A program made the position numbers and the translations under genes. This document shows, in pieces, positions 25,499 through 60,347 of a stretch of DNA of 64,000 bases. The notes under the pieces were generated by a model. The model worked only from the letters and a program-made list of their open reading frames with translations. It ran no database searches and had not been told where the DNA came from. The first letter of the stretch is position 1; every line of letters starts with the position of its first letter. Origin of the DNA: an uncultured Bacteroidota bacterium (GTDB taxonomy: Bacteria; Bacteroidota; Bacteroidia; Chitinophagales; Chitinophagaceae); the NCBI GenBank assembly GCA_903906365.1, contig CAIVKC010000002.1, forward strand, positions 1-64,000. Reading direction: 5' to 3'.

Positions 25499-25531
25499 GT
25501 TTCCTGATTATTCAGCCACCGCCAAAACAGC

Positions 25532-26710: not shown

Positions 26711-26717
26711 AGGCTGT

Positions 26718-28774: not shown

Positions 28775-28806
28775 AACCCCTGGAGCAAGCGCCGGCTTCA
28801 GGGGTT
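28775..28806. terminator. Bidirectional terminator-like hairpin
   Basis: AACCCCTG (28775-28782) pairs with CAGGGGTT (28799-28806), extended by a G-U and three more pairs, with an eight-base loop. It lies between the convergent membrane protein and amidohydrolase genes and overlaps the amidohydrolase stop codon. CTTTT follows on the plus strand. Confidence 0.5.
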
Positions 28807-30390
28807 CTTTTCCCATACGCACTTCCCATTAACATAGGTTTTTTCGACCCGAATACCGGTAAGCTGCTCGGGTTTGGTTTCCAACGGATCCCCGTCGATC
28901 ACAATGAAATCTGCCAGCATCCCCTCTTTGAGGGCACCTATGAGCGGAGTCCCGCTCAGGGCAGCTGCATCGCTGGTGTAGGCCTTTAAAGCCTCCCTGA
29001 TACCGATGCTTTCATGAGCGGCTATTATATTCCCTTCATTGTCCCTCCTGGTTATGGCAGCTTCCATTCCTTTGAAAGGATTGAACTCCCTGACAACAGG
29101 GGCATCCGAGGAAAGGGCCATTAAAATGCCATGCTCAAGCACAGAACGAACCGGATAACAATGATCCAGATATTCCTGGCCCAGGTATTTGATGAAATTC
29201 TTTCCCAGTTCACTGATAAAAATGGTTTGCATCGAAGCCGCGATATGATAGGCTGACATATCGACCAGATGTTTTTTTTCCGGGAGGCCCAGGTGTTCGA
29301 TGCGCTTCATGATTCCCGGGAATTGGGCCCCAAGCTGTTTATACTCTTCAATGACAAATTCAATGGCGGCATCCCCTATGGCATGGGTGGCAATGCCAAA
29401 ACCCTTCGCCATGGCCTGTTTACCCAGCGCGCGGAATTGGTCCCTGTCCAATCGGAGCACCCCCTGTTCATGGGAATTTTTATAATATCCTTTAAGGGCT
29501 GAAGTTTTTCCACTCAGGCCCCCGTCACTGAAAAATTTCACCATATTTACCTGCATAAACGATGAGGAGAAACAGTCTCCCACCGGATAGGGCCTGCCTC
29601 CGCCATCGGGCAGCAGAATAGGTATGGCATTGAGGCGAAAGCCGAGTTCCCCGTTGCGGTCCATTTCCCGGTAAGTGTCCAATAACAACGGATCCACAGC
29701 AGGATCAGTCGCCGCGGTTATTCCCTTTGCATACAATTGCTCCCGGGCTGCCTCAATCATCTTTTTCAACTGAAAGGAATTGTAAGGCGGAATATGACCA
29801 GAAATCAGGCCAAGCGCGGTTTCGGAAAATATTCCGTTTAATTTTCCGGCATGGTTCCGGTAGATCATCCCGCCAACAGGAGCGGGTGTTGTCTGGTCAA
29901 TACCGGAAATCTCCATTGCCCTGGAATTGGCAACAGCGATATGGGCGCAGGTTCGGATCACAAATACCGGCCTGGATGGGATTACCCGGTCCAGGTCATC
30001 GCTGGTGGGCATTTGACCTTTTTCCCATCCTGCCTCATTAAATCCCCTGGCCGTAATCCAGGGCGCCTCCGGATAGGCCCTGGCATATTGGTCCAGCATC
30101 TGCAGCATTTCCTCCAGGCTACCGGCTGCCCGCACATCCAGCATATAGGTCCGGAGGTTCCCTACTTTCCAAATATGGATATGGGTATCGTTAAAACCCG
30201 GCAGCAGCGTTTTTCCCCTGGCATCCAGCACCTCCGTCTGCGGGCCTATCAGGGGCTGTAGAAACTCCCATTTGCCCACAGCCTCAATCTTATTGCCGCT
30301 GATGGCAAGGGTATCGGCCTGGTTTTCCTTCCACCCCTGGTGAAAGGAATGCAAGCGGGCATTACGTATAATGAGATTAGCGATGGCCAT
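28798..30390 (-). CDS. Metal-dependent amidohydrolase, YtcJ-like
   Basis: 530 residues of the amidohydrolase superfamily (amidohydro_3, YtcJ / N-substituted formamide deformylase type). The metal-binding THIH motif lies near residue 70 in LLPGFNDTHIH. KFFSDGGLSGKTSALKG, THAIGDAAIE, RIEHLG and LSSDAPVV provide the remaining metal and substrate residues, with LADFIVIDGDPL at the end. No signal peptide, so cytosolic. It probably hydrolyses an N-acyl or amide bond; the real substrate is unknown. It is the last gene of the minus-strand amine cluster, 133 bases after the second gabT-like gene, so it may have its own promoter. A role in deacylating amides within that pathway is inference. Confidence 0.88.
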   Translation of the reverse strand: MAIANLIIRNARLHSFHQGWKENQADTLAISGNKIEAVGKWEFLQPLIGPQTEVLDARGKTLLPGFNDTHIHIWKVGNLRTYMLDVRAAGSLEEMLQMLDQYARAYPEAPWITARGFNEAGWEKGQMPTSDDLDRVIPSRPVFVIRTCAHIAVANSRAMEISGIDQTTPAPVGGMIYRNHAGKLNGIFSETALGLISGHIPPYNSFQLKKMIEAAREQLYAKGITAATDPAVDPLLLDTYREMDRNGELGFRLNAIPILLPDGGGRPYPVGDCFSSSFMQVNMVKFFSDGGLSGKTSALKGYYKNSHEQGVLRLDRDQFRALGKQAMAKGFGIATHAIGDAAIEFVIEEYKQLGAQFPGIMKRIEHLGLPEKKHLVDMSAYHIAASMQTIFISELGKNFIKYLGQEYLDHCYPVRSVLEHGILMALSSDAPVVREFNPFKGMEAAITRRDNEGNIIAAHESIGIREALKAYTSDAAALSGTPLIGALKEGMLADFIVIDGDPLETKPEQLTGIRVEKTYVNGKCVWEKNP

Positions 30391-30523
30391 ATGATTCTAA
30401 CCTGTTTGGTAAATTGATCCCTTCACGAAACAAAACGGCTTCAAAAATAACCGAACAATGTACATTACGCCCGGTCTGCTTGTCATGCCTGTTGTTACCG
30501 GACCTGCCAGCATGCCCGGCTGT

Positions 30524-31873
30524 TTATCTGCCGGCCCTTTTTGACTGGGCCCTGGCAATGCAGTCCTCCAATACCCCGAGCCCTTCGCGAAGCTGCTCAT
30601 CAGTGATGACAATGGGCGGCAGGAGCCTGATACAATTGCTGAATAAGCCGGCCCTGATCATTACCAGACCCCTTGAAACAGCATCCTTGATCACTTCAAG
30701 GGTCACTTCCGCGTCGGGTTCCTTGGTGTGGCGGTCCCTGACAAATTCCACCAGCCGCATGGCTCCTATTCCGCGAACATCTCCTATAATGGGGTATTTC
30801 CCTTTCCAATCCTCCAGGGTCAGCCGGATTATTTCCCCCACCTCATGGACCCTATTTAGAAAAGCCTCGCTTTTGAGGATCTTCAGCGCTTCAATGGCCG
30901 CCACGCAGGCCAGGGGGCTGCCCCCATAGGTTCCCCCTACCCCACCCAGGTGGGGGGCATCCATTATTTCAGCCTTTCCGGTTACTGCACTTATAGGCAT
31001 ACCCGCTCCGATGGACTTGGCGCTGACAATGATATCCGGAATTACACCGCTGTGCTCCACGGCAAATAGTTTTCCGGTCCTTGCAGCCCCGCACTGAATC
31101 TCGTCTGCTATAAAGACAATCCCGTATTTATCGCAAATTTCCCTTAACCTTTTCAGGTACTCGGCGGGGATCGGGAGGAATCCGCCCTCCCCCTGTACCG
31201 GTTCAATGATGATGGCAGCCAGTGATTCGGGATCCACCTGTGAAATGAACGCCTCATCCAGTTTGGCCAGGCAATGCTGCAGATAATCCGCCTGGCTCAT
31301 TCCCTGAATGCCGCGGTACATGTTGGGTGCGGCTATCCTGTATATATCGGAAACGTAGGAACCGAATCCCTTTTTGAACAATGCGTATTTACTGGTCAGA
31401 CTTAAGGTAAGCAGCGTGCGTCCGTGGTAAGCTCCTTCAAAACAGAGTACTGCATTTCGCTTGGTATAATACTTGGCGATATTGACTGCGTTTTCAACGG
31501 CCTCGGATCCCGAATTGGCCAAAAGGGTCTTTTTGGGAAAGTCCCCCGGCGTCAGGCTGTTGAGCAATTCCGCCAGTTCAAGATAGGGTTCCATGGTAGT
31601 AACCAGTGAGCAGGTATGAATATACTTATCGAGCTGCTCCCTGATGGCATTAACCACCCTTTGGTCCCGGTGCCCCACATTGATCATGCCGATTCCGCCG
31701 GCAAAATCAATGAGCTGATTGCCATCGATATCCTGAATAAGGGCGCCTTCCGCACTGGCCACCACCACGTCTGTTGATTTAGCAAGGCCGGAGGGCAGGG
31801 CATTCTTTCTCCTTTCAAGGGCTGCCTGGCTCCTGGGGCCAGGTAATGCTGTTTTTAGTTGTATGTAAGACAT
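30524..31873 (-). CDS. gabT: 4-aminobutyrate-type aminotransferase (second copy)
   Basis: 449-residue class III PLP aminotransferase, close in layout to GabT: transfers the omega-amino group of GABA or a related amine to 2-oxoglutarate. Motifs include DFAGGIGMINVGH, LLANSGSEAVENAVNIA, FEGAYHGRTLLTLSLT, IIEPVQGEGGF, IADEIQCGAARTG, and the Schiff-base lysine in SAKSIGAGMPISAV. The ATG at 31873 begins eight bases after the upstream acetyltransferase stop; starts further upstream overlap that gene. It is paralogous to the copy at 35962, so the cluster carries two similar aminotransferases, perhaps for different omega-amino acids (GABA, beta-alanine, ornithine), which sequence alone does not resolve. 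Confidence 0.9.
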   Translation of the reverse strand: MSYIQLKTALPGPRSQAALERRKNALPSGLAKSTDVVVASAEGALIQDIDGNQLIDFAGGIGMINVGHRDQRVVNAIREQLDKYIHTCSLVTTMEPYLELAELLNSLTPGDFPKKTLLANSGSEAVENAVNIAKYYTKRNAVLCFEGAYHGRTLLTLSLTSKYALFKKGFGSYVSDIYRIAAPNMYRGIQGMSQADYLQHCLAKLDEAFISQVDPESLAAIIIEPVQGEGGFLPIPAEYLKRLREICDKYGIVFIADEIQCGAARTGKLFAVEHSGVIPDIIVSAKSIGAGMPISAVTGKAEIMDAPHLGGVGGTYGGSPLACVAAIEALKILKSEAFLNRVHEVGEIIRLTLEDWKGKYPIIGDVRGIGAMRLVEFVRDRHTKEPDAEVTLEVIKDAVSRGLVMIRAGLFSNCIRLLPPIVITDEQLREGLGVLEDCIARAQSKRAGR

Positions 31874-31881
31874 AATATTCC

Positions 31882-32301
31882 TTATATGGTTTTTGAAAAA
31901 TGATGACAATTTAGGGTAAACCCCTTGTTGAGATAGAGCCGGTGCGCATCATGGCGGAGGTATCCGGAATCCAGGGTAACTGTTTTAAGACCCATTTCGG
32001 TAGCCTTTGAAACAACATAATCAATCAACAAACCGCCCAGTCCCCTGCCCCTCGACTGAGGAAGGGTAGAAAGGTCATCGATGTAGAGATGCTTGCCATT
32101 GTAAAGAAACTGCTGGTACCTGAATCCCACAGCAGCCACTGCCCTGCCTTCTTCTTCAATAAAAGCAAGGTGGTAGCCTTCGTTGATCATTTCAAGGACG
32201 GTTTCTACAAAAGTCTCCTTAAGGAGATGTGGCCTCAGTTCCATCAGGCAATCCCAGCATTTAAGGATATCATGTCCGCTCCGGGCGATTTGAATTTTCA
32301 T
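31882..32301 (-). CDS. GNAT-family N-acetyltransferase
   Basis: 139-residue single GNAT domain. The acetyl-CoA pyrophosphate loop is in LPQSRGRGLGGLLIDYV (Q/R-x-x-G-x-G/A pattern), preceded by the LYIDDLSTL strand and followed by VTLDSGYLRHDAHRLYLNKGF, the typical motif B end. Family knowledge says it transfers acetyl to a primary amine. The acceptor is not predictable. It is sandwiched between another GNAT and a gabT-like gene with gaps of 42 and 8 bases, so it is certainly part of the amine cluster. Acetylation of amines or polyamines is the most natural reading, but it is inference. Confidence 0.88.
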   Translation of the reverse strand: MKIQIARSGHDILKCWDCLMELRPHLLKETFVETVLEMINEGYHLAFIEEEGRAVAAVGFRYQQFLYNGKHLYIDDLSTLPQSRGRGLGGLLIDYVVSKATEMGLKTVTLDSGYLRHDAHRLYLNKGFTLNCHHFSKTI

Positions 32302-32343
32302 GTCAGATGTTAATCTATTGTTTTAAATACACTTAAAATACAT

Positions 32344-33012
32344 TCATACTTGCTTGTCAATATCAAGTCTGATAAGAACTCCGTAATTGCCGCATACGGG
32401 ATCATTGACATAGTCAGGGATAAGGGCCACGGGCTCAAAACCAATCTTTATTTGGGTGCTGATGGTCGGATCAAACCGCCTTCCGCTGGTCAGTTCCTCA
32501 TAATATTGCTCCCCGCTCATCTGACCCTGCAGTGCTCCATAACCGCTCATCATCCCCACCGTCAACTGACCTTTCAAACCCAATTCCCTGGCTACATCCT
32601 GTCTTGCCCTGTAGAGCACCCTGGCAAGTCCCAAACCGCGGTAATCAGGGTGAACCCCGATATCAAGTCCGTAGAGCCAGTCACCCTGGGGGTCATGGTT
32701 GGTCATCCATCCGCCGGCAATGGTCTCCTTAAACGTATGGTGGTATTCGGAGAAATCAAACCGGCTTCTCATGGTGGTAGTCATACCGATCACCCGGTCA
32801 CCATCTGTAATGACAAACTGCCCCTGCGCAAATAATTCCAGGTGCTTCAGGTAATGCTTTGCTTTAATGAGTTCATCCTCCGAAAGGGTGGGAAAGACAA
32901 TTTTCTGAAGCGCTTCGAGCCGCTCCGCGTGTGCTGGTTCCATATTGGATACCACTAATCGTTCGCCGATTTTTTTAAAGTATGGCATTTTTTTTACAAG
33001 CATATTATACAT
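32344..33012 (-). CDS. GNAT acetyltransferase of the type usually fused to a nitrilase domain
   Basis: 222 residues. The segments KETIAGGWMTNHDPQGDWLYGLDIGVHPDYRGLGLARVLY and GMMSGYGALQGQMSGEQYYEEL resemble the N-terminal GNAT half of bacterial GNAT/carbon-nitrogen-hydrolase fusion proteins. The acetyl-CoA loop is HPDYRGLGLARVLY. Here the protein stops about where the nitrilase half would begin, and the next gene is a different GNAT, so the domain stands alone. The ATG at 33012 directly abuts the antiporter stop, and ATGs at 33003 and 32988 are alternatives. The acceptor is unknown; context suggests amines. Confidence 0.85.
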   Translation of the reverse strand: MYNMLVKKMPYFKKIGERLVVSNMEPAHAERLEALQKIVFPTLSEDELIKAKHYLKHLELFAQGQFVITDGDRVIGMTTTMRSRFDFSEYHHTFKETIAGGWMTNHDPQGDWLYGLDIGVHPDYRGLGLARVLYRARQDVARELGLKGQLTVGMMSGYGALQGQMSGEQYYEELTSGRRFDPTISTQIKIGFEPVALIPDYVNDPVCGNYGVLIRLDIDKQV

Positions 33013-34398
33013 TTAGGAAGTCAGATAACCCAGTACGACATAGCTTATACAGGACAAGCCAAAGGCAATCAGGGCAAAGGGTAATTGGGATAAGCCATGA
33101 TCGAGGTTACTGCATTCCGTTGATTGGCCTGTCAGGACCGTGGCATCGGAATATAAACAGGCATTTGCACCAAATACCCCCGCGCTAATAACGGCGCCGC
33201 AATTAAGCAATATATTTGAATGGAGGTGCTGGGCAAGCGGTACAATCAGCGGAATGGCCACCGCATACAACCCCCAGGATGATCCGGTCGTAACAGATAT
33301 TACCGACAGGGAGGCAAATACAACGAATGGGAGCATTTGCCTGTTTACATAAGGGGAGACACTGTGCAGCACATAGAGGGTCAGGCCCATTTTATCATTG
33401 ACATCTTTCAGAACATAGCTCATCATGAGGATAGCCAGGGCGTACACCATGCTATTGAACCCCCCGAATACGGTCTCGGAAAGTTGTTTAAATGTTCCGA
33501 CTCTGATGACACGGTAATATAGAAAAGTAAATGCAACGGCTATCATGACCCCCTTCAGCGCATCAATATTAAAATAAATGGTAGCAGCCAGCAGCACAAG
33601 GATTGGCACCAGAAAATACGTTACCCTGGGCGTTTTTACGGGGTTCATGACAGAGATATCCAGGCCAGCCGTTACGTTTAATTCCCCTTCAGTCAGTTTG
33701 CCGGTTTTTTCGGTTCTCTCGGAAGCCCTTTTCATTCTGCCAAACCAGGGGAGCACTCCGTATATGAACAGAGGAATGATCAAAACTGATATATAGCCAT
33801 AGCAGACGTAGGGAATCATTCTCCAGTAGGTAGATAATCCCTTACCGGCCTGAGCCACATGTGATTTTTCCAAGACGGCCCCAATATAGATGGTCCAGGT
33901 GGAAATCGGAACGATGACACACCAGGGCGGAGCGGTGGTGTTGACGATGTAGGCGAGCATTTCCCTGGGGACCTTAAAGGCATCCGTTATCTTCCGCATA
34001 GATAATCCCACGGTAAGGGCGCTCAGGTAGTCATCCAGGAAAATCCCCAGGCCAAGACCCCATGCTCCCATCAGGGCGCCCCTTTTGGTTTTTATCCTGG
34101 TTAAAGCCCATTCCCCAAACTTCAGGGTACCCCCGCTTCTAACCATAAGCCCAATGAGCGAGCCATACAGTCCGCATACCAAAATGACCCAAACCGCTCC
34201 CCCGGAACTCGGATCGCCGATGGTGCTCATCATGGAATCGACAAAACCAGAAAAAAAATTGGCCCCTCCGTGAAAACTAATGATGATAAATCCTACCAGG
34301 CAACCTATAAGCAACGGCTCAAAGGAGGTGCGCATGATAATTGCCAGTATGATTACAACCAGCGGGGGTATTAATGCCAATGCGCCATAATCAGTCAT
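33013..34398 (-). CDS. NhaC-family Na+/H+ antiporter-like transporter
   Basis: 461 residues, about eleven membrane helices. Recognisable segments are GGAVWVILVCGLYGSLIGLMVRSGG, LGIFLDDYLSALTVGLSMRKITDAF (acidic residues in a helix), NTTAPPWCVIVPISTW, TTGSSWGLYAVAIPLIVPLA and SDATVLTGQSTECSNLDH. NhaC relatives exchange Na+ for H+ or, in several operons, an amine or organic ion for a cation. Between an aldehyde dehydrogenase and amine acetyltransferases, inner-membrane transport of the locus substrate is more plausible than pH control, but this is inference. There is no gap to the GNAT gene downstream and 129 bases to the dehydrogenase upstream. Confidence 0.87.
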   Translation of the reverse strand: MTDYGALALIPPLVVIILAIIMRTSFEPLLIGCLVGFIIISFHGGANFFSGFVDSMMSTIGDPSSGGAVWVILVCGLYGSLIGLMVRSGGTLKFGEWALTRIKTKRGALMGAWGLGLGIFLDDYLSALTVGLSMRKITDAFKVPREMLAYIVNTTAPPWCVIVPISTWTIYIGAVLEKSHVAQAGKGLSTYWRMIPYVCYGYISVLIIPLFIYGVLPWFGRMKRASERTEKTGKLTEGELNVTAGLDISVMNPVKTPRVTYFLVPILVLLAATIYFNIDALKGVMIAVAFTFLYYRVIRVGTFKQLSETVFGGFNSMVYALAILMMSYVLKDVNDKMGLTLYVLHSVSPYVNRQMLPFVVFASLSVISVTTGSSWGLYAVAIPLIVPLAQHLHSNILLNCGAVISAGVFGANACLYSDATVLTGQSTECSNLDHGLSQLPFALIAFGLSCISYVVLGYLTS

Positions 34399-34527
34399 AT
34401 TCGTTCTAATTTTACATTTATTGCAAGCACCTGCCCTGCGGAATTTACCAAAAGACCCATCAGAAAGTACAACAAACCATGGCTGGTAACCGCCCGACCA
34501 GGGAATCCACGGCCCGTCCTGCAGGGA

Positions 34528-35958
34528 TTATAAGCCGCCAATGCTGATCAGTTTTTTCTCCATATACTCATATAAGCCCTCCGAACCGCTTTCATGACCC
34601 TGGCCGCTGTAGTTCCATCCTCCAAAAGGAGATTCAGTGCCATGTGGGGCCCACTCATTGACCCCTACCATACCAAAATCCAGGCGCTCCGATGCATAGA
34701 TGGCCGTTTTCAGGCTGTTGGTGAAGACGTAGGCTGCCAAACCATATTCCGTATCATTGGCCATTTCAATGCCATCATCAAGATCATCGAAGACAAATAA
34801 GGGCAGTACAGGTCCGAAAATCTCATTGCGTGCAAGCGGGGAAGACTGATTTAAGTTCGTCACTACGGCAGGCTGGAAAAAATACCCCTTTTCCAAATGA
34901 TGGGGAACATACCCGCCGGTGAGTATCCTGGCATTTTCCTGTCTTGCTTGGTCCAGCAGGTTCATTACCGATTCGCGCTGGCGTTTTGTGATAAGTGGTC
35001 CCAGCTGGACACCCTGTTCGAAACCGCCTCCAACTTTCAGGTTTGATACATAGCCGCTTAGAAGTTCTGCAAATCGGTCAAATATGGGCCTTTGCACATA
35101 AAATCGCTGAGGAGCTATGCATACCTGTCCGTTATTTCTGAAGCGGGCTATGGAAGCAGCCTTTGCCACGGCATCCACGTCCGCATCCTCAAACACCAGT
35201 ACTGGCGCGTTACCACCCAGTTCAAGGGAGAGCTTGGTATGCGTTTTGGATGCACCATCCATCAATATTTTGCCTACCCTGGTACTTCCCGTAAAACTGA
35301 TTTTCTTAAGGGCCGGGTTATCCAGGAATGCAGTACCGATGGACTGGGCATCCCCCACCACAACGTTGATTACCCCTTTTGGAATCCCCGACTCGGCCAG
35401 GGCCCGGGCCATATGGTAGGCCGATAGGGGGGTGTTTTCGGATGGTTTAGCCACCACCGTGCACCCGGCTGCTAGTGCTGCCGCCCAGGCACGGGCCGGG
35501 TTGTAAGCCGGGAAATTCCAGGCTGTAATAATCCCGATGACGCCCATAGGCTGCCAAATGACGGAGCTCCTTTTGTCCGGACGGTTTGTTGGAATGACCC
35601 TGCCATAGGCCCTTTTTGCCTCCTCAGCATACCATTCAAACAAATTGGCAGCGACAGCCCATTCGCCTTTCGCCTCTCCAAGCGGCTTACCGCTTTCCAA
35701 TACCATGTCACGGGAAAGGTCGTCCATATGCTCGCGCAAATAGTCGGCTGCTTTTTTTAATATCGTAGCCCGCTGGTAGGGTGTGGTCCTGCTCCACGAC
35801 TTAAAAGCCGCCTGGGCAGCACCGATGGCCAGGTGTGCATCCTGGCCACTGGCTGCACTGATAGTATCGATCATTTCTTCGGTAGCTGGGTTGATGAGTG
35901 GAAGGTGCTGTCCGTCTTGGGAAAGAGTCCACTCCCCATTGATAAAGAGTTTATGCAT
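34528..35958 (-). CDS. gabD: NAD(P)-dependent succinate-semialdehyde-type aldehyde dehydrogenase
   Basis: 476-residue ALDH superfamily enzyme oxidising an omega-semialdehyde to the acid; with GabT it would turn succinate semialdehyde into succinate. It may also oxidise 4-aminobutanal to GABA. The N-terminal cofactor segment is GIITAWNFPAYNPARAW, the general base lies in LELGGNAPVLVFEDAD, and the nucleophile is Cys280 in NNGQVCIAP; EIFGPVLPLF follows. All catalytic residues are present. The ATG at 35958 is 3 bases after the gabT-like stop, showing tight coupling. Exact aldehyde specificity is not settled by sequence, so the gabD symbol is by context. Confidence 0.9.
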   Translation of the reverse strand: MHKLFINGEWTLSQDGQHLPLINPATEEMIDTISAASGQDAHLAIGAAQAAFKSWSRTTPYQRATILKKAADYLREHMDDLSRDMVLESGKPLGEAKGEWAVAANLFEWYAEEAKRAYGRVIPTNRPDKRSSVIWQPMGVIGIITAWNFPAYNPARAWAAALAAGCTVVAKPSENTPLSAYHMARALAESGIPKGVINVVVGDAQSIGTAFLDNPALKKISFTGSTRVGKILMDGASKTHTKLSLELGGNAPVLVFEDADVDAVAKAASIARFRNNGQVCIAPQRFYVQRPIFDRFAELLSGYVSNLKVGGGFEQGVQLGPLITKRQRESVMNLLDQARQENARILTGGYVPHHLEKGYFFQPAVVTNLNQSSPLARNEIFGPVLPLFVFDDLDDGIEMANDTEYGLAAYVFTNSLKTAIYASERLDFGMVGVNEWAPHGTESPFGGWNYSGQGHESGSEGLYEYMEKKLISIGGL

Positions 35959-35961
35959 ATG

Positions 35962-37266
35962 CTACGCTTTTTTGGTAAGTGTTTCCAATCCCTGTTCAAT
36001 AATATCAAGCCCTTTGTTCAGCAATTCCTCTTCAATGACCAGGGGACTCAGGATGCGTATCACATTGCCGTTGACCCCGGCATTAATTACAATTAGCCCC
36101 TTTGAGGCACAATACGAAATTAATTCCCGGCATAAGGCGGCATCGGGCTGAAAAGGATCCCTGTTCCTGACAAGTTCAAATGCCATCATCGCCCCCAGGC
36201 CCCGGACATCCCCAATGGCAGGAAACTTAAGCTTGAAAGCCTCAAAGCGTTCCCGTACAATGCTGCCAACCCTGGCACCCAGGGCATTGATGTTAACCTG
36301 CTCCATGTAATTGAGCGTCGCCAGGGACGCCGCACAGCAAACAGGGTTTCCCGGATAGGTGCCCCCGATGGTAGATGGCTTGCATGAATCCATGATATGG
36401 GCCTTACCGATTACAGCGCCGATGGGCATTCCGCTTCCCATGCTTTTAGCCCAGGTAGAAATGTCGGGGATAACGTTATAATGCTGGTAGGCAGCCCATT
36501 TCCCGGTTCTACCAAAACCACTCTGGACCTCATCAAGTATCAGCATGATGCCGTACCTGTCACATATTTGACGGACACCTTCCAGGTACTTCTGAGGAAC
36601 CACATTGAAACCTCCCTCCCCCTGAACAGGCTCCAAAATAATGGCGGCCACCTGTTCGGCCGGTACATTGGTATGAAAGAACGCTTCCAGATCAGCCAGA
36701 TGCTTATCGGAGAATTCATCCAGGTTCAGGCCGCTGCCATGCCGGTAATAATCCGGAAAGGCTATACGGTAAATCTCCGGGGCAAAAGGACCGCAACCCA
36801 ATTTATAACCGACCTTGGAGGTCAGTGTCATGGCCATCATAGTGCGTCCATGAAAGGCACTGTCATAACAAATGACGGCCTGCCTGCCGGTAGCCTGCCT
36901 GGCGATCTTAACGGCGTTCTCAATACTTTCAGCACCCGAATTGGTAAGCATTACCTTGGTATGCTCCCCATGGGGAAGCAGCCCGGCCAGTTTTTCTGCA
37001 AGCTGCATGTACAGATCATAGGTGGCGACATTAAAACTGCAGTGGATCAGGCTGGCCGACTGCCTGGCAATGGCTTCCACCACAGGCTGGGGGCAGTGCC
37101 CCGCATTGACCACGCCTATGCCGCCTGCAAAATCGATCATTTCCTTTCCGTCAGCATCCACAATAACGCTGCCTTTGGCACTGACGGCCGTGGAAGGATT
37201 AAATATCCCAATGGCATTGGGAACAAATCTTTTTCTTCTTTCCAGTAACTGTTCTGATTTTTTCAT
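35962..37266 (-). CDS. gabT: 4-aminobutyrate-type aminotransferase (first copy)
   Basis: 434-residue class III PLP aminotransferase; E. coli GabT has 426. The start at 37266 (MKKSEQLLERRK) matches the beginning of GabT; open frame continues to 37338 and overlaps the amine oxidase stop, so longer starts are possible but less likely. Motifs are DFAGGIGVVNAGHC, MLTNSGAESIENAVKIA, YDSAFHGRTMMAMTLTSK, IILEPVQGEGGF, LDEVQSGFGRTG, and the Schiff-base lysine in WAKSMGSGMPIGAV. It converts GABA (or a similar omega-amine) and 2-oxoglutarate to the semialdehyde and glutamate. It is directly coupled to the dehydrogenase gene (3-base gap), the usual gabT-gabD partnership. Confidence 0.91.
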   Translation of the reverse strand: MKKSEQLLERRKRFVPNAIGIFNPSTAVSAKGSVIVDADGKEMIDFAGGIGVVNAGHCPQPVVEAIARQSASLIHCSFNVATYDLYMQLAEKLAGLLPHGEHTKVMLTNSGAESIENAVKIARQATGRQAVICYDSAFHGRTMMAMTLTSKVGYKLGCGPFAPEIYRIAFPDYYRHGSGLNLDEFSDKHLADLEAFFHTNVPAEQVAAIILEPVQGEGGFNVVPQKYLEGVRQICDRYGIMLILDEVQSGFGRTGKWAAYQHYNVIPDISTWAKSMGSGMPIGAVIGKAHIMDSCKPSTIGGTYPGNPVCCAASLATLNYMEQVNINALGARVGSIVRERFEAFKLKFPAIGDVRGLGAMMAFELVRNRDPFQPDAALCRELISYCASKGLIVINAGVNGNVIRILSPLVIEEELLNKGLDIIEQGLETLTKKA

Positions 37267-37337
37267 GGTCGCATGCATTAGACTAAAGTAATTGTAATTG
37301 TTCATTGTCCTATAAGTCCTCCGGAGTAAAGGATTCA

Positions 37338-38930
37338 TTACTGAGAACCGCTTCCAGCGTGTTTTATTATGTGCCCCCTCTTGAGAGCAAGGGCTATGGA
37401 CGCTGCGGCCTGACGGCCGGTTTGGGCCGCGCCGTTCATATATCCCTGAAAATCGCGGCTGACATGCTCACCTGCAAAATGGATGTTTCCGACCGGCACA
37501 CCCTCCCATCCTGCCAGTCTGGAACATTGCCCTTTCCTGTAAGCGCTGTAACCGGCGAGGCTGAAGGGGTTCTGCCGCCAGTAATAAGAAATATTTTTAT
37601 GATTATAGGCCAATTTGGCTCCCGGATAGATCGTTTCAAGGCCCTGTACAAATTCGCCGGACAGGTCTTCATTGCGGGTATTGAGTATCCGCTCGCCGAA
37701 ATCCCCCCCGCCAAAAACCGTGAAGCTGCCCTGTTTGTCAGACTGGCTCTGGGTACTGTCCCACCCGCAGCCAAATGAGATATCCGTAAACGTATATCCC
37801 TGTCTGCCGGCATCCCGCCAGGGCTTGCCGTTAAAACCCATGATAAACTTGCAACTGTTGCCATACCCCAGTTCGTCAATACATTTTCTCTTTTCTGCGG
37901 GCATCGGGACATTGAGCTGTATCTTCCTTAAAACCGTAAAGGGCAGGGTCAGCAGCACCTGATCAGCCTCAATGACCGATGGGGTCTTCCCGTTTTCAAA
38001 GGAAAGGGCGTATCCTCCCGCCGGCAGGGTGGAAATGGAAACAAGCTTCTTTCCAAGCGTTACATGATCCTTTACTTTGTCATAGAGGGTATCGACCAGA
38101 TGCTGGCTTCCCCCTTTTATTTTGTATACTTCATGGTCATCACCAAACATCTCATAATAGGAGCCTGCAGCAGCAGGCGGAGTAAACATGATCAGAAAAT
38201 TAATGGCCGATTGTTCGGAGGATTCCATTCCATATTCCCTGGTAAGTACCACCTGAATGAAATCGTATAGCCATCCCCGGATACCGATGGACCCGAGGTA
38301 TTCTGTGATGGACAGGTTATCCAGGCGGCTGAAGGAGGCGCCGGTTTTATAATTGATGGAATGCGGCAGCGAACCGATATCCATGACCAATTGTTTAATA
38401 TGAGGTTTGAAAGCGCTGATTAAGTCCCTGTTTGACAGGTGGGCGCCACCAAAATACAGCTCCTTGGGCAGGAGTCTATCCTTTCGCAAATCATATAATT
38501 CCAGGCCCAGTTCCTTTACCAGGTGCAGGATCTCGGCATGAGAGGTGTCCACAAACTCACCGCCGACATCGGTTGTAAGACCAGGCCAGAAAGCATCTTT
38601 GAGCGTATACATCCTGCCACCGGTTCTGCCGGAGGCTTCATATATCCTGGAGCGGATGCCCATTTTCCCCAACTGGTAGCAGGCGTTCAGTCCTGCCATG
38701 CCCCCTCCTACTATGGCAACCTCCCTGCGCTGGGAGGAATCCTGGTCCGGGTTCCTGTGCCTGAACAAGGCAGGGGCTGCCAGCAGGCCCCCAGCGGTGT
38801 AAGCTGTATCGCGGAGGAATTTTCTACGGCTTTCCAGGTTCCTGCAAAACAATTCCTTTGACTGCGGGTCATTGCTGAGTGCATCGGAAAACATTTTTTT
38901 TAGCAGGCTGGCAATTGGGCTATGCGACAT
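37338..38930 (-). CDS. Tat-exported flavin monoamine oxidase
   Basis: 530-residue FAD amine oxidase. Residues 34-40 read SRRKFLR, a classical twin-arginine export motif, followed by a hydrophobic stretch to about residue 56, so the folded flavoprotein is expected outside the cytoplasm. The dinucleotide motif is VAIVGGGMAGL near residue 72, with YEASGRTGGRM next and the C-terminal FAD segment IHFAGEHVSRDFQGYMNGAAQTGRQAA. It oxidises a primary or secondary amine to an aldehyde plus H2O2. Putrescine, other polyamines or aromatic amines are candidates. It lies 27 bases downstream of susD, so uptake and oxidation appear to be co-expressed. The substrate is inferred from the neighbours. Confidence 0.9.
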   Translation of the reverse strand: MSHSPIASLLKKMFSDALSNDPQSKELFCRNLESRRKFLRDTAYTAGGLLAAPALFRHRNPDQDSSQRREVAIVGGGMAGLNACYQLGKMGIRSRIYEASGRTGGRMYTLKDAFWPGLTTDVGGEFVDTSHAEILHLVKELGLELYDLRKDRLLPKELYFGGAHLSNRDLISAFKPHIKQLVMDIGSLPHSINYKTGASFSRLDNLSITEYLGSIGIRGWLYDFIQVVLTREYGMESSEQSAINFLIMFTPPAAAGSYYEMFGDDHEVYKIKGGSQHLVDTLYDKVKDHVTLGKKLVSISTLPAGGYALSFENGKTPSVIEADQVLLTLPFTVLRKIQLNVPMPAEKRKCIDELGYGNSCKFIMGFNGKPWRDAGRQGYTFTDISFGCGWDSTQSQSDKQGSFTVFGGGDFGERILNTRNEDLSGEFVQGLETIYPGAKLAYNHKNISYYWRQNPFSLAGYSAYRKGQCSRLAGWEGVPVGNIHFAGEHVSRDFQGYMNGAAQTGRQAAASIALALKRGHIIKHAGSGSQ

Positions 38931-38957
38931 ATAATAATCTTAGATTCTTGAATCAGT

Positions 38958-40322
38958 TCAATACCCCGGATTTTGTTTTACGATATTATTGGTACCCTCT
39001 ATTTCACGCTGGGGGATGGGCATGATTGGATTGACGCCGGCTCCGAGTATGGAGCCTACGTTGCCAGTCCGGGCCAGGTCAAACAACCGGTGTCCTTCAA
39101 AATTCAATTCTGCCCTTCTTTCATCGAGCACCGCATTGAGAAAACTGGTGCTGTCCGGCACGTCGGCGCCCGTCAAATCAGCCAGACCGCGGCTTTCCCT
39201 CAGGGTATTGAGATCAGGGAGTCCGGCTGATCTTCCGCTGGCTTCTGCACGAATGAGATAGACTTCAGCCAGACGGAGGACATAACCCGAGTTGTCTTTG
39301 GTCTGCTCCCCGCGGTATTTCTGGGTTCGTCCATCCGGCATGATGGAAGGATCCTCATTGACAAAGTCAACCAGGGCACCTCTTACATCCCCGGGCCGGC
39401 CCTGGAAGAAGGTATTCAATCCTGCGGAGGCAAGAAAAGCCACATCCGTTCTAAGGGCGGTGGTCCTTACGTAAGTCAGCGTATTATAGGCGCTGGGATT
39501 TTGGAGGTCGAATTTCAATTCAAACACGCTCTCCGGGGTCAGCCGGCTGGAATAAACCTGAGGCACCGAACCAGGCCCGAACAAGGCAAAATTGTTATCA
39601 TTGATGACATCGGTGGCAAGGGAGTCCGCATGGGCGTAATCCCCATAATACAGGTCAACCCTTGCAAGCAGTGCCTTGGCGGCAGAAAGGGAAATATACT
39701 GGTTTCCGTTAAAGGTATTCAGGGATGTGATGGCCGACTGCAGGTCCGCTATAATCTGCTTGTAGGAAGCGTCCACAGTACTGCGGGCTATGGGGACCTT
39801 TGGCTGGCCGATGGTCACAACAATGGATATTCCGTATTCGGATGATTTATTCCAGTGTTCCCCATAGAGCCTGAGCAGGTCAAATTCACCCAAGGCCCTT
39901 ACAAAAAGCGCTTCGCCAAGAATGTTACTTCCTTCGGTGGGGTCCAGATTGGGCACTTTGGAGATGTTGTTGATGATGGAATTGGCCGTATAGATACTGT
40001 TATAAATGGCCTGGTATATTCCCGTGGTGTAGAGGTTGGCTGTCTGGACCGTCCTGGAGGCTATATCATTGAGATCAATCACATCATAGCCGCCCGTCGT
40101 TCCATTGTCTGCATAACATTCTGACAGCAGGGGGAAATAACCTCCGTAGTAATTCTTGTCCTGCAGGGTGCTGTACATGCCTATACGCGCATTTCTAAGG
40201 CCATTCACGCTGGTAAATATGGTACTGTTGTCAACAGCATTGGGCGAAGTAACGTTCAGTATCTTATTACAGGAAGATAAGGCGATCAGGCAAAGAACCC
40301 CTGATATAATATATTTAATCAT
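38958..40322 (-). CDS. susD: SusD/RagB-family nutrient-binding outer-membrane lipoprotein
   Basis: 454-residue surface lipoprotein that caps the SusC transporter and delivers ligand. The signal ends in a lipobox with the lipidated cysteine at 18 (ALSSCNK). Helical TPR-like regions include ILGEALFVRALGEFDLLRLYG, and the C-terminal domain holds LAEVYLIRAEAS, LDERRAELNFEGHRLFDLARTG and the PIMPIPQREIEGTNNIVKQNPGY terminus typical of SusD. It starts 10 bases after susC, the universal susC-susD order. No surface glycoside hydrolase follows; instead an amine oxidase does, so the ligand is probably not a polysaccharide. Confidence 0.94.
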   Translation of the reverse strand: MIKYIISGVLCLIALSSCNKILNVTSPNAVDNSTIFTSVNGLRNARIGMYSTLQDKNYYGGYFPLLSECYADNGTTGGYDVIDLNDIASRTVQTANLYTTGIYQAIYNSIYTANSIINNISKVPNLDPTEGSNILGEALFVRALGEFDLLRLYGEHWNKSSEYGISIVVTIGQPKVPIARSTVDASYKQIIADLQSAITSLNTFNGNQYISLSAAKALLARVDLYYGDYAHADSLATDVINDNNFALFGPGSVPQVYSSRLTPESVFELKFDLQNPSAYNTLTYVRTTALRTDVAFLASAGLNTFFQGRPGDVRGALVDFVNEDPSIMPDGRTQKYRGEQTKDNSGYVLRLAEVYLIRAEASGRSAGLPDLNTLRESRGLADLTGADVPDSTSFLNAVLDERRAELNFEGHRLFDLARTGNVGSILGAGVNPIMPIPQREIEGTNNIVKQNPGY

Positions 40323-40332
40323 AACTTGATTT

Positions 40333-43300
40333 TTAGAAATTAAAGTTTAATCCAAAGGTCAGTGTCCGGGCCTGGGGATAGGCTGCGTAATCAACCCCGG
40401 CCGTTTGGGGGTTGCTGCCTCCGTTGGAGGAGACCTCCGGGTCAAATCCATAATATTTTGTCAGCACCCATAGGTTTTGTACCTGCAGATACAGTCTGAG
40501 CGAGTTGTATAATCCGGGATGCTTGGGGCGCAGGGTATATCCCAGGTTTACGGTGCGAATTCGGAAAAAGGAAGCGTCCTCCACGAACTGGGATGATTGC
40601 TGGTTATAATTCTGAAAAATCAGGGAAGCCCTGGGGATATTGGTAACATCTCCGGGTTTTTCCCATCGCTTGTTCACGATGGTGGCGTTGTTGGCATATA
40701 CCTGGAATAGATTGTTATTCGCATCCCATCCGCCCGGGCTGTATCCGAGGGTTTGGTAAGTGGTTCTGATCAGATTGTAGACCTTATTTCCCAGGCTGAA
40801 CTGGGTGGAAATGGACAGATCAAAGTTCCTGTATTTAAAATCATTGGTCAGACCCCCAAAATAATCCGGGGTGGCCTTACCCAAAATCTGTGGATCATTG
40901 GAATAACTAGGGTTACCGGTTTTGGGATCAACACCCAGGTACTTATATCCCCAGAAGGATCCCACAGCCTGGCCGACTTTCAGTATATGGGTAGGGAACA
41001 GGTCAGCGTAGGCGAAAATCAGTTCATTGTCGCTGTAAAGGCTCTTGATCTTATCCTGGATATAGCTCATGTTGAAACTGATGGCCCAGGAAAAATGCGG
41101 GTTCTTCACAGGATAGGCCATCAGCGAGAACTCGACCCCTTTATTTTCTATGTCTCCTGCATTGGTGGTGTAGGAAGCAAAGCCGGAAGTGGCTGGCAGT
41201 ACCGCGTTGGCCAGCAGTTTGGTCCTGTCACCCCTGAAAAATTCCAGGGAGCCGCTTAATTTACCATGCTGAATTTCAAAATCAGCCCCGATATTAAACA
41301 TTTTATTGCGCTGCCAGGTCAGTCCCGGGTTACCAATATTGGTGGGACGTAGTCCCGCATTTCCGTCATACCTGGAAGGCGTCCAGTAGCGCTGAAACTG
41401 GAAATCACCAATTTCCTGGTCACCGGTCAGCCCGTAACTCACCCTGAGTTTTAAGTTGGTGATGAATTCGGATTTTTCCATGAATTTTTCCTTGGACAGG
41501 ACCCAGCCGGCAGAAAAGGCGGGAAAAAGGCCCCAACGGTCGGAAGGATCAAATCGGGAGGATCCGTCATACCGGGCAGATAAGGAAAACAGGTATTTTT
41601 CATCATAGGCATAGTTTATCCTGCCCAGGAAAGAAGCGAGCCCCCATCCAAAATTCTGTGCGGAAGCGGAAGTGACCGTGGAGGCGCTGGAAATATTTTC
41701 CAGGCCACTGCCTTCCGGGAAACCCTGTGCCTTTACGGCCGTTTTTTCATACCGCGAGGACTGGGCGGTAAAGCCGCCTACCGCCGAAAGACTGCTTTTG
41801 CCGAAATTATTGGTATAGGTCAGTATATTTTCATTGAGCCAGGTCAGGTTGCGGTAAGTCCCTTCTATGGCTTTGCCTCCGACGGGAGCCCCATCAGAGG
41901 TAATGGGATCAAAAAATTGGTTATCAATCAGGTTGGTATAATCCGCCGTAAATGAACTGCGGAACTTCAGGCTTTTTAGCAGCTGGATATCTGCAAAAAC
42001 AGTTCCTATGAATCTGTAGTTGGTGGTAAATGCCTTGATTTCTTTGGCTGATTTAACCGGATTATCGCTTAACCAGCTCGCCTGGTAGAGGGTGTAATCG
42101 GCATAACTACCGTCTGCATTATACACCGGCATGAGGGGAGAAGCACCCAGGGCATTGGTAACAATGCCGGTATAGGTGTCATCATTGAAACTCCTTCGGT
42201 TTCGCCCATAGGTAAACGAAGTATTGGCTCCCAGGCTGATGCGGTCGTTTACTTTATTGTCCAGGTTCATCCGGAAGGAAGCCCGTTTATAAAAATTCTC
42301 GATGACGATGCCCTGCTGATCAAAATAATTGCCGGCCAGGAAGAATTTGGTCTTTTCATTGCCGCCTCTGGCCGATAACTGCAGATTGCTGATGGGAGCA
42401 GTCCGGAAGATCTGGTTTTCCCAATTGGTATTGACGCCCGTATTCCAGGAGGAGGGCAGGGGGGTTGTCAGCACGCTGGGGTCAAATCCCGGATACAGGT
42501 TGTTGAAGGGGGTCGGATCCTGATTATAGGCGATGAGATCCTGTTTTCTGGCGTCCTCTTCCAGGGCTACAAAACCCTTGCTGTCCAGAAATGGGATCTT
42601 CCGGGACACATTTTGTATGCCGGCAAAACTGTTGAACCCGAACTCCGTTTTCCCGTTTTTACCCCTTTTGGTAGTGATCAGGACCACGCCGTTGGCGGCC
42701 CTGGCTCCGTAAATGGAAGCGGAGGAAGCATCCTTGAGTATTTCAATAGATTCAATGTCATCTGGATTGATATCACTGATAGAGCTGATATTTTGTCCGC
42801 TTCCCTCCTCATCTCCGGTAGTATTATAAGAGGTGGACAGGGAGGAATTACTTTCACTGAGCATGGGAACGCCATCCACCACATAGAGGGGATTATTGGC
42901 ACCCCGCACACTTACCAGCAAACCGGCCCCCGGAGTACCCGATGGTGTCGTCACCAGGATTCCGGCTACCTTCCCCTGTATGCTTTGTGCCAGGTTACTG
43001 ACCGGCTGGTCCTTGAATTCCTTGTTACGCACGCTGGAAATAGCACCGGTGATATCGCTTTTTTTCTGGGTTCCATATCCCACCACGACCACATCACTGA
43101 GCTGACTTTTTGCTTCCTCCAGTACAATATCCAGGAGGATGCGTCCTTTTATCTCTACCAACCTGGATCTGTAGCCTACAAAGGAAACTTCCAGTATCTC
43201 GTCGCCTTTTCCCACCACGATGGAATAGGTGCCGTCACTGCCGGAATTGGTGCCCTTCTTTGTTCCTTTGATGACCAGGGTGGCCCCGGCAACTGGCTTG

Positions 43301-43419
43301 CCCTCTGCATCTTTAATGGTGCCCTTTACAATTTGGTTCTGGGCAAAAAGTACGGTCGTGCATAATAAACAGCACATAAGAGCAGCAGTTGCCGCCAAGA
43401 ACTGAACGGTTCGATTCAT
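40333..43419 (-). CDS. susC: SusC/RagA-family TonB-linked outer-membrane transporter
   Basis: 1028-residue TonB-dependent transporter. Signal peptide about 1-26; a carboxypeptidase D regulatory-like domain (about 30-100; GTIKDAEGKPVAGATLVIKGT, VSFVGYRSR) precedes the plug (about 110-230; YGTQKKSDITGAISSV, LAQSIQGKVAGI, VRGANNPLYVVDGVPM, SASIYGARAANGVVLITTKRGK). The rest is the 22-strand barrel ending in aromatic residues (LTFGLNFNF). It imports ligand across the outer membrane with SusD. There is no STN domain, so no anti-sigma coupling is evident and no ECF sigma gene is near. It is divergent from the unknown gene at 43679 with repeated motifs in between. Confidence 0.95.
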   Translation of the reverse strand: MNRTVQFLAATAALMCCLLCTTVLFAQNQIVKGTIKDAEGKPVAGATLVIKGTKKGTNSGSDGTYSIVVGKGDEILEVSFVGYRSRLVEIKGRILLDIVLEEAKSQLSDVVVVGYGTQKKSDITGAISSVRNKEFKDQPVSNLAQSIQGKVAGILVTTPSGTPGAGLLVSVRGANNPLYVVDGVPMLSESNSSLSTSYNTTGDEEGSGQNISSISDINPDDIESIEILKDASSASIYGARAANGVVLITTKRGKNGKTEFGFNSFAGIQNVSRKIPFLDSKGFVALEEDARKQDLIAYNQDPTPFNNLYPGFDPSVLTTPLPSSWNTGVNTNWENQIFRTAPISNLQLSARGGNEKTKFFLAGNYFDQQGIVIENFYKRASFRMNLDNKVNDRISLGANTSFTYGRNRRSFNDDTYTGIVTNALGASPLMPVYNADGSYADYTLYQASWLSDNPVKSAKEIKAFTTNYRFIGTVFADIQLLKSLKFRSSFTADYTNLIDNQFFDPITSDGAPVGGKAIEGTYRNLTWLNENILTYTNNFGKSSLSAVGGFTAQSSRYEKTAVKAQGFPEGSGLENISSASTVTSASAQNFGWGLASFLGRINYAYDEKYLFSLSARYDGSSRFDPSDRWGLFPAFSAGWVLSKEKFMEKSEFITNLKLRVSYGLTGDQEIGDFQFQRYWTPSRYDGNAGLRPTNIGNPGLTWQRNKMFNIGADFEIQHGKLSGSLEFFRGDRTKLLANAVLPATSGFASYTTNAGDIENKGVEFSLMAYPVKNPHFSWAISFNMSYIQDKIKSLYSDNELIFAYADLFPTHILKVGQAVGSFWGYKYLGVDPKTGNPSYSNDPQILGKATPDYFGGLTNDFKYRNFDLSISTQFSLGNKVYNLIRTTYQTLGYSPGGWDANNNLFQVYANNATIVNKRWEKPGDVTNIPRASLIFQNYNQQSSQFVEDASFFRIRTVNLGYTLRPKHPGLYNSLRLYLQVQNLWVLTKYYGFDPEVSSNGGSNPQTAGVDYAAYPQARTLTFGLNFNF

Positions 43420-43480
43420 AAGAGTCGTTTTGTGTTTATAAAGCAGTTTAGAACAATAAAGCGAGCAACCGTCTTTGAAA

Positions 43481-43493
43481 TATGAATTTCATA
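43481..43493. promoter_or_regulatory. 13-base palindrome upstream of susC
   Basis: TATGAATTTCATA is a perfect palindrome around its central T, 62 bases before the susC ATG. It may bind a regulator or mark the promoter region. Confidence 0.35.
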
Positions 43494-43495
43494 CA

Positions 43496-43635
43496 GTCAA
43501 ACCTGTCAAAACATTTTTGAACTTTTTTTTAAATAAAAGGAGGAGACATTGATTCCCAATTGCTTTTGTTTGGTCAGATTTTGGTAACTTGTTTGGTCAA
43601 ATATATCGCCGAAAATTACTTTTTGATTTGACCAA
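43496..43635. promoter_or_regulatory. Cluster of GTCAAA / TTTGGTCA repeats between susC and the divergent gene
   Basis: GTCAAA occurs at 43496, 43505 and 43596, and inverted as TTTGAC at 43627. Longer TTTGGTCA copies begin at 43569 and 43592, with a related TTTGGTAA at 43580, so three half-sites lie 11 and 12 bases apart, and TTTGACCAA (43627-43635) is the opposite orientation. Such phased repeats between divergent genes are typical of an operator. Binding is not shown. Confidence 0.5.
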
Positions 43636-43678
43636 GAAAAAACAAACATTATTTTTTTAATTAATATGATCGGAGTCT

Positions 43679-60271: not shown

Positions 60272-60347
60272 GATGTTGGTTTTTATGGAATATGATAAAA
60301 AGGCTATCAATACAAACAATCAATGGGACCATCATCACCAATGCCGC

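Follow-up and report, generated by a model that had tools for sequence, protein, structure and literature searches.

A conserved SusCD-headed amine gene set in Bacteroidota that is probably a polyamine utilisation operon

A conserved amine gene set and its dedicated SusCD pair

We describe ten minus-strand genes in a 64,000-nucleotide stretch of DNA from an uncultured Chitinophagaceae bacterium (contig CAIVKC010000002.1, positions 1 to 64,000; hereafter the window). The ten open reading frames (ORFs), at window positions 28798-43419, run from susC and susD through an FAD amine oxidase, a GabT-like aminotransferase (AT1), an aldehyde dehydrogenase (ALDH), an NhaC-type transporter, two GNAT proteins of 222 and 139 residues (GNAT222 and GNAT139) and a second GabT-like aminotransferase (AT2) to an amidohydrolase, and a divergent gene that we call REG lies upstream of susC (Table 1). 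Together they form a conserved set of amine genes that has a SusCD pair of its own and, linked to it, a candidate regulator. Genomic associations, with PotABCD in one relative locus (L054) and with AguA/AguB-like genes in three others (L107-L109), suggest that the set is most likely a polyamine catabolic operon. Our preferred explanation, to which we give a probability of about 0.6, is that the locus is a dedicated operon for the utilisation of di- and polyamines of the putrescine/spermidine class via intermediates of the 4-aminobutyrate (GABA) type.

A sequence-only reading of the same DNA had listed ten same-strand genes in named families and no glycan enzymes, and both claims hold. All ten ORFs are present where it placed them and Pfam assigns each to a named family (10/10), with further detail from NCBIfam for nine and none for GNAT222. 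No carbohydrate-active enzyme linked to the SusCD pair was found among the ten genes (0/10) or in REG by Pfam and NCBIfam, and Pfam shows no peptidase family in any of the ten.

Conservation of the gene order

An oxidase search of 98 genomes, the organism's own included, gave a match at E ≤ 1e-60 in 17 of them; contigs were searched as well, resulting in 56 loci. Ten of the 33 genomes of the genus carry the oxidase, all with at least 53 % identity. The window proteins were mapped onto 75 loci, where a core is found in the order SusC-SusD-oxidase-AT1-ALDH-NhaC-GNAT222-AT2. This full core, in the same order, is present in 13 loci outside the window (L020-L029, L031, L033 and L053) and in three more genomes of the genus (L114, L115 and L116), for a total of 16 further loci. 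Besides these, one core locus is split across two contig ends (L111 and L151), and L030 and L032 are truncated by contig ends. The carriers include Mucilaginibacter (L023, L026, L027) and Foetidibacter (L025). Because the core keeps its order in 16 further loci, the gene neighbourhood is beyond chance. A check of gene order among Bacteroidota genomes had been proposed by the sequence-only reading.

Among the relative loci GNAT139 is found only in L020, L021, L033 and L106. Outside the window, 14 loci have the amidohydrolase (L020-L024, L026, L027, L033, L053, L106, L111 and L114-L116); it was not seen 3' of AT2 in L028, and the stretches of L025, L029 and L031 stop too early to judge. Around the distant oxidases (L034-L052 and L055-L074, the in-locus L053 aside) the other locus genes have no relatives of at least 40 % identity in the same stretch, and the only matches are to ALDH, aminotransferase or amidohydrolase at about 28-35 %. 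One carrier, L024, is titled Beijerinckiaceae and yet has a Bacteroidota-type locus; it is perhaps a mislabelled metagenome bin. Searches of a single open-access library gave no account of such a locus.

A SusCD pair dedicated to the locus

SusC exceeds the cut-offs of both SusC/RagA models (TIGR04056, 792.5 bits against 368.25; TIGR04057, 65.8 against 46.2). SusD has the Pfam SusD domains, adjoins susC and carries a cysteine, Cys18, that is invariant in 18 sequences, consistent with a SusD-family lipoprotein. Both proteins divide their relatives into a near and a far group, with identities to the window of about 68-87 % and 51-58 % for SusC and about 57-80 % and 43-50 % for SusD (44-80 % to the 17 locus partners).

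The specificity of SusC was estimated in 19 genomes at E ≤ 1e-190, with at most 42 candidates scored per genome. A close SusC is found in nine of the 19, and all nine carry the locus (in G192 it lies on a second contig piece). Among the scored candidates none of the ten locus-free genomes has one, despite at least 40 SusC candidates in each. This distribution favours a link between the SusCD pair and the locus; a susCD pair conserved without the amine genes, which the sequence-only reading had named as the pattern that would speak against it, was not observed.

Another explanation is chance juxtaposition, in which a glycan SusCD happens to stand beside an amine operon. The nearest relative of SusC among solved structures is indeed a dextran transporter, 8aa4 (440 bits, compared to 294 for RagA), identified as the SusC of the dextran utilisome (PMC7618045). 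The linkage is nonetheless repeated in 17 loci outside the window (the 16 plus L106), and this, together with the 0/10 count above, leaves chance with almost no credit.

Variant loci with putative components of polyamine metabolism

In a Lentimicrobium metagenome-assembled genome, relatives of the locus enzymes flank a polyamine-type PotABCD transporter (L054 and L173, on the same contig, G484:C42). The order is amidohydrolase (40.5 % over residues 303-527, a partial match), AT1 (58.6 %), ALDH (57 %), GNAT222 (44 %), PotD-like, CaiB-like, PotB, PotC, PotA, ALDH, Sad-like and oxidase (33 %). SusCD and NhaC were not seen there, contig ends limiting the view of the outer genes; the place that they hold in other loci is taken by the polyamine-type ABC system. 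PotA of L054 scores above the cut-off of the polyamine transporter model (364.9 bits with TIGR01187, cut-off 355.6), while the binding protein falls below the cut-offs of the YdcS, PotF and PotD models and matches PotF, PotD and SpuD-type structures. This operon holds three ALDHs besides the oxidase, aminotransferase, GNAT and CoA-transferase.

A second variant, in three genomes of another genus (L107-L109), is a four-gene core of ALDH-NhaC-GNAT222-AT2; the L109 stretch starts at GNAT222, so that only L107 and L108 show AT2. The core is divergent from genes resembling PAD_porph/agmatine deiminase and N-carbamoylputrescine amidase. The AguA/AguB-like model scores in L107 are below the NCBI cut-offs, and the L108 and L109 genes are 88-93 % identical to those of L107. 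The third variant, L106, keeps SusCD and the aminotransferases and has a Sad-type ALDH at the position of the oxidase.

The only GabT-type enzymes among the eight class III matches of the organism's genome are AT1 and AT2, the other six being 25-34 % identical to them. Taken together with L054 and L107-L109, this indicates putrescine-class amines that are degraded via GABA.

The amine oxidase

Of the 16 in-locus oxidases in the alignment, 15 have the RR motif that defines a twin-arginine translocation (Tat) signal (RC in L024), and the genome encodes TatC (206 bits), so that export of the oxidase is predicted from its sequence. With a profile the best match is to monoamine oxidases (MAO), and with the single sequence it is to an entry that we take to be NicA2-type (E 2e-22 at best). 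K361, Y461 and Y497 are invariant in 30 of 30 oxidases and align with the MAO positions that are presumably the catalytic lysine and the tyrosine cage. No cysteine precedes Y461 in any of the 30 and the FAD is for this reason probably non-covalent.

Each of the four genomes of L106 and L107-L109 has an oxidase 38-40 % identical elsewhere (40 % in the case of L106); in the oxidase search set a distant oxidase is found in seven of the 88 genomes that lack a close one. Unlinked relatives at this level are L175, L176, L177 and G219:C77:234476-236014.

The aminotransferases and the aldehyde dehydrogenase

AT2 scores 508.2 bits with the GABA aminotransferase model (TIGR00700, cut-off 506.65) and AT1 482.9. 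Relatives also fall on both sides, with AT2 of L020 (508.3) and AT1 of L106 (509.1) above the cut-off and AT1 of L020 (483.1) and the L107 enzyme (461.4) below.

The ALDH belongs to a subfamily that is rare, being found in six of 395 genomes of the phylum at E ≤ 1e-150, its own included. In succinate-semialdehyde dehydrogenase (SSADH) the substrate carboxylate is held by Arg213, Arg334 and Ser498 in human numbering (PMC11681614). The locus enzyme keeps both arginines (Arg156 and Arg274) and the catalytic Cys280 in 22 of 22 sequences, the window included, in a set where L054 is partial and L024 has one X; the L024 frame contains one stop. This makes a semialdehyde that carries an acidic group a plausible substrate. 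At the Ser498 position the 22 sequences have His (19) or Gln (3) and never Ser.

A Sad-type SSADH-like gene is found in six relative loci, namely L106 and, at 52-62 % identity to it, L023, L025, L026, L054 and L116. In the organism's own genome a Sad-type query has no near relative, its best match being the locus ALDH at 31 %.

The inner-membrane transporter, the GNATs and the amidohydrolase

Exchange of arginine against ornithine is reported for an NhaC-family transporter of Halobacterium (PMC5300872). The structure model of GNAT222 has a pLDDT of 88; its nearest folds by Foldseek are the GNATL domains of SxtA, GphF and CurA, and a profile comparison agrees, so that by fold and profile the protein belongs to the GNATL clade. 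These domains suggested a malonyl-CoA decarboxylase in a beta-alanine branch, as did the CoA-transferase near the L054 relative. We rejected this candidate because GNAT222 lacks the catalytic dyad by alignment: the dyad of GNATL decarboxylases is His-Thr/Ser (PMC3701320), and CurA His389 and Thr355 align with the invariant Gln187 and Gly153 of GNAT222. Related GNAT domains are found in 121 of 395 genomes of the phylum at E ≤ 1e-10, mostly in frames of about 500 residues or more. In L152 (3756-5315) a GNAT222-related GNAT is fused to a carbon-nitrogen hydrolase.

Another explanation is that the imported substrate is a larger polyamine compound, such as a plant phenolamide, an acyl-polyamine or a polymer, from which the amidohydrolase frees the amine. 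Such a cargo would account for a SusCD pair serving a small-amine pathway, and the amidohydrolase is present in the 14 loci listed above. However, the amidohydrolase begins with MAIANLIIRNARL, in which no export signal is visible by eye, and it would thus act only after uptake across the inner membrane. We consider this explanation quite unlikely.

A divergent gene and conserved direct repeats upstream of susC

The divergent gene REG and the repeat array, both upstream of the locus, had escaped the sequence-only reading. REG has no Pfam match, with two weak matches (E about 0.1) for one homologue, and no NCBIfam match at E ≤ 1e-20. Its counterparts in 13 further loci share 55-74 % identity with it. 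Among 58 genomes, its own included, REG is found in ten, with no second copy, and these are the same ten that carry the oxidase at 53 % identity or more. In G016 it is divided between two contigs, its contig in both G030 and G019 differs from that of the oxidase and adjacency is not visible, and it was not found in the 5 kb upstream stretch of L025. A structure-based identity was also considered and discarded, the model being poor (pLDDT 60) and the similarity to known folds, lipocalin-like barrels, being weak (best E 3e-3). REG may resemble a helix-turn-helix protein.

In the REG-susC gap the motif T[CT]TGAC occurs 60 times over 15 loci, compared to 4.8 in shuffled sequences. Pairs spaced exactly 23 bp apart are found in 12 of the 15 loci (absent in L028, L029 and L031), while in 500 dinucleotide shuffles no spacing from 8 to 60 bp was shared by more than one locus; homology among the loci inflates these counts. 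The 12 pair-bearing loci include Mucilaginibacter loci, whose spacers match that of the window only in short stretches. In the organism's own genome the exact pair has two matches, one of them the local one, against three for a backwards-pattern control, so the evidence for the pair comes from the comparison of loci. The other genomic pair (G000:C22:86580-86608) is probably due to chance. We regard REG as a candidate regulator and TTTGAC-N17-TCTGAC as its candidate operator.

A proposed route from amine to dicarboxylate

We hypothesize that the SusCD pair lets the amine pass the outer membrane, either free or as part of a larger compound, and that the Tat-type oxidase, whose motif is observed, would oxidise the amine in the periplasm. 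The NhaC-type transporter and other carriers would move amines or omega-amino acids inward. By family, AT1 and AT2 together with the SSADH-like ALDH may then yield a dicarboxylate, from GABA to succinate or a close homologue, while the GNAT and the amidohydrolase would probably add and remove an acyl group in the role of PuuA and PuuD. REG, linked and conserved as described, is probably a ligand sensor that would act on the TYTGAC repeats to control the operon.

A more ambitious version is that SusCD is a dedicated TonB-dependent importer of polyamines or their conjugates, a third cargo class after glycans and peptides, that REG represents a so far undescribed family of regulators and acts at the 23-bp-spaced TYTGAC repeats, and that putrescine follows an acyl-protected route in which a GNATL-clade GNAT and the amidohydrolase replace PuuA and PuuD. 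We put this forward tentatively and would sooner doubt than trust it as a whole.

Evidence against polyamines and the alternatives that it suggests

Several observations weigh against a polyamine operon. Polyamines are small and have no obvious need for a SusCD complex, and the solved structure closest to SusC is the dextran transporter mentioned above. The PotABCD association is seen in one locus only, and the aminotransferase frame of L054 has two TAG stops in the assembly. Next to the core of L107-L109 there is no SusCD, oxidase or AT1. The oxidase is missing from the locus in two of the three variant types, L106 being a SusCD locus without it, and the oxidases elsewhere in those four genomes are only a hint because three of the four share one genus. 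The oxidase scores about equally against NicA2-type, monoamine and putrescine oxidases, and its scores against L-amino acid oxidases are not far off. The cut-off of the GABA model is reached neither by AT1 nor by the aminotransferase of L107, and the ALDH is below that of the SSADH model (TIGR01780, 507 bits against 646.35) and has no Ser498 equivalent. Its arginine pair is also found in sulfolactaldehyde dehydrogenases (PMC10599462).

One alternative is a C5 route, in which cadaverine, 5-aminovalerate or lysine-derived amines are converted to glutarate and the aminotransferase and ALDH take the roles of DavT and DavD. The residue at the Ser498 position would fit it. The CaiB-like protein of L054 is closest to succinate-glutarate CoA-transferase, which is a further hint of C5 diamines and glutarate and counts against the putrescine route, but it reaches only 253.9 bits with a cut-off of 750. 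AT2 passes the GABA aminotransferase model, if narrowly, and in three genomes the core has neighbours of the agmatine-to-putrescine type, which indicate C4 amines. We think the C5 route unlikely.

Alternatively, the locus may scavenge GABA, other omega-amino acids or peptides, with RagAB-like import of peptides or amino acid polymers and the oxidase as a side activity. One of the relatives of SusC with a solved structure is RagA, L106 retains SusCD and the aminotransferases with no oxidase in the locus, and the four-gene core does without both SusCD and the oxidase. Against this, the ten genes include no peptidase family and the oxidase lies immediately 3' of susD in 16 of the 17 readable SusCD loci outside the window. 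Scavenging of this kind also seems improbable to us.

We therefore retain the polyamine operon, and the sequence-only reading is upheld in part. Its coherent amine route is borne out by the coherent gene set, the dedicated SusCD, the Tat-type signal and a GABA-type end by family, and it is weakened by the missing serine in the ALDH (0/22) and by the L106 locus without oxidase. Its idea of polyamines gains indirect support from the PotABCD exchange and the agmatine-to-putrescine neighbours.

Layout and surroundings of the locus

The gaps between the ORFs, from the susC end to the amidohydrolase, are 10, 27, -1, 3, 129, 0, 42, -28 and 133 bases. Homologues of AT1 and AT2 have ...KKSEQ-like and MSYIQLKTALPGP-like N-termini. 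Because the homologues begin there, the true start of AT1 is probably about 60-75 bases inside the longest ORF and that of AT2 is probably the ATG near 31873; with these starts the overlaps with the preceding ORFs would vanish.

The breaks of 129 and 133 bases reported by the sequence-only reading are both real. Its suggestion of an extra promoter in the first (34399-34527) finds no support as a conserved feature, since the ALDH-NhaC gap varies from an overlap in L115 through about 10 bases in L022 to about 2 kb in L029. No full match to the Bacteroidota -33/-7 promoter consensus was found on either strand of the 15 intergenic regions. A sigma-70 scan (24 sites, 21.3 in shuffles) and a terminator scan (31 sites, scattered through coding sequence, 18.9 in shuffles) were uninformative.

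The locus is followed by GntP permease, glycerate kinase and Nramp-type genes (window 24233-28049, minus strand) that are not in the conserved set. Elsewhere, an array of long ORFs resembling FtsX-type ABC permeases lies at window 57839-62789 and in L117, with NIFGLAIGM-like N-termini by eye.

Table 1. Features of the locus, in window coordinates
Feature	Position	Strand	Basis
SusC/RagA TonB-dependent outer-membrane transporter, 1028 aa	40333..43419	-	TIGR04056, TIGR04057
SusD-family lipoprotein, 454 aa	38958..40322	-	Pfam SusD-like_3 + SusD_RagB
FAD amine oxidase, 530 aa, RR-x-F-L Tat-type signal	37338..38930	-	PF01593
AT1, class III aminotransferase, GabT-like	35962..37338	-	PF00202; TIGR00700 below cut-off
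Aldehyde dehydrogenase (ALDH), distinct SSADH-like subfamily, 476 aa	34528..35958	-	TIGR01780 below cut-off
NhaC-type inner-membrane transporter, 461 aa	33013..34398	-	PF03553, 71.9 bits vs 23
GNAT222, conserved acyltransferase-like protein, GNATL clade, 222 aa	32344..33012	-	PF00583
GNAT139, accessory acetyltransferase, 139 aa	31882..32301	-	PF00583
AT2, class III aminotransferase, GabT-like	30524..31909	-	TIGR00700 just above cut-off
Amidohydrolase family 3 protein	28798..30390	-	PF07969, 267 bits
REG, divergent gene outside known families, candidate regulator	43679..44707	+	conservation, linkage
Gap between REG and susC, with conserved TYTGAC direct repeats	43420..43678	.	locus comparison
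TTTGAC-N17-TCTGAC pair, candidate operator	43573..43601	-	locus comparison
Two more TTTGAC repeats, 9 bp apart, nearer susC	43496..43510	-	repeat scan

Comparison with known systems and significance

SusCD complexes are commonly read as markers of glycan use. Like a SusCD-headed polysaccharide utilisation locus, the present one opens with susC-susD, which are followed by genes specific to a substrate and linked to a candidate regulator. Unlike in such a locus, Pfam shows neither a glycoside hydrolase nor a lyase nor a surface glycan-binding protein among the ten genes, and the enzyme families target amino, aldehyde and amide groups. A parallel in cargo may be RagAB of Porphyromonas gingivalis, a SusCD-type complex that imports peptides (PMC11817032). 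Both would handle a nitrogenous, non-glycan substrate, as we propose here, but in the present locus an amine oxidase and aminotransferases are linked to the complex and SusC is nearer to 8aa4 than to RagA. SusD proteins that bind synthetic polymers are the subject of PMC11267923, which has nylon 6 among its keywords.

The Puu pathway of E. coli degrades putrescine with an importer, acyl protection by PuuA, an aldehyde dehydrogenase, PuuD, and GabT and SSADH steps. Importer, acyl protection, ALDH, amide hydrolysis and GabT/SSADH-type steps can be matched one-to-one on paper. The differences are that the GNAT and the amidohydrolase would replace PuuA and PuuD, whose families are absent among the ten genes (Pfam and NCBIfam, in a search of these ten only), and that SusCD and the predicted exported oxidase are additional. 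With NicA2- and MAO-type oxidases our enzyme shares the family, the catalytic lysine and the tyrosine cage, and with 7khn also an SRR-type N-terminus in the alignment; it differs in having no cysteine before Y461, and the similarity is distant. GNAT222 likewise resembles the GNATL decarboxylase domains of CurA, SxtA and GphF in profile and fold over most of its length, while differing at the two dyad positions.

REG is outside Pfam and comes with a directly testable candidate operator. One lineage has related enzymes beside PotABCD and others have them beside SusCD, which offers a ready comparison. If our explanation is true, SusCD as a glycan marker can mislead, and the TonB-dependent nutrition of soil Bacteroidota would be widened to polyamines. 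If confirmed, the locus would be a new form of SusCD-headed locus, built on an importer type that is best known for sugars.

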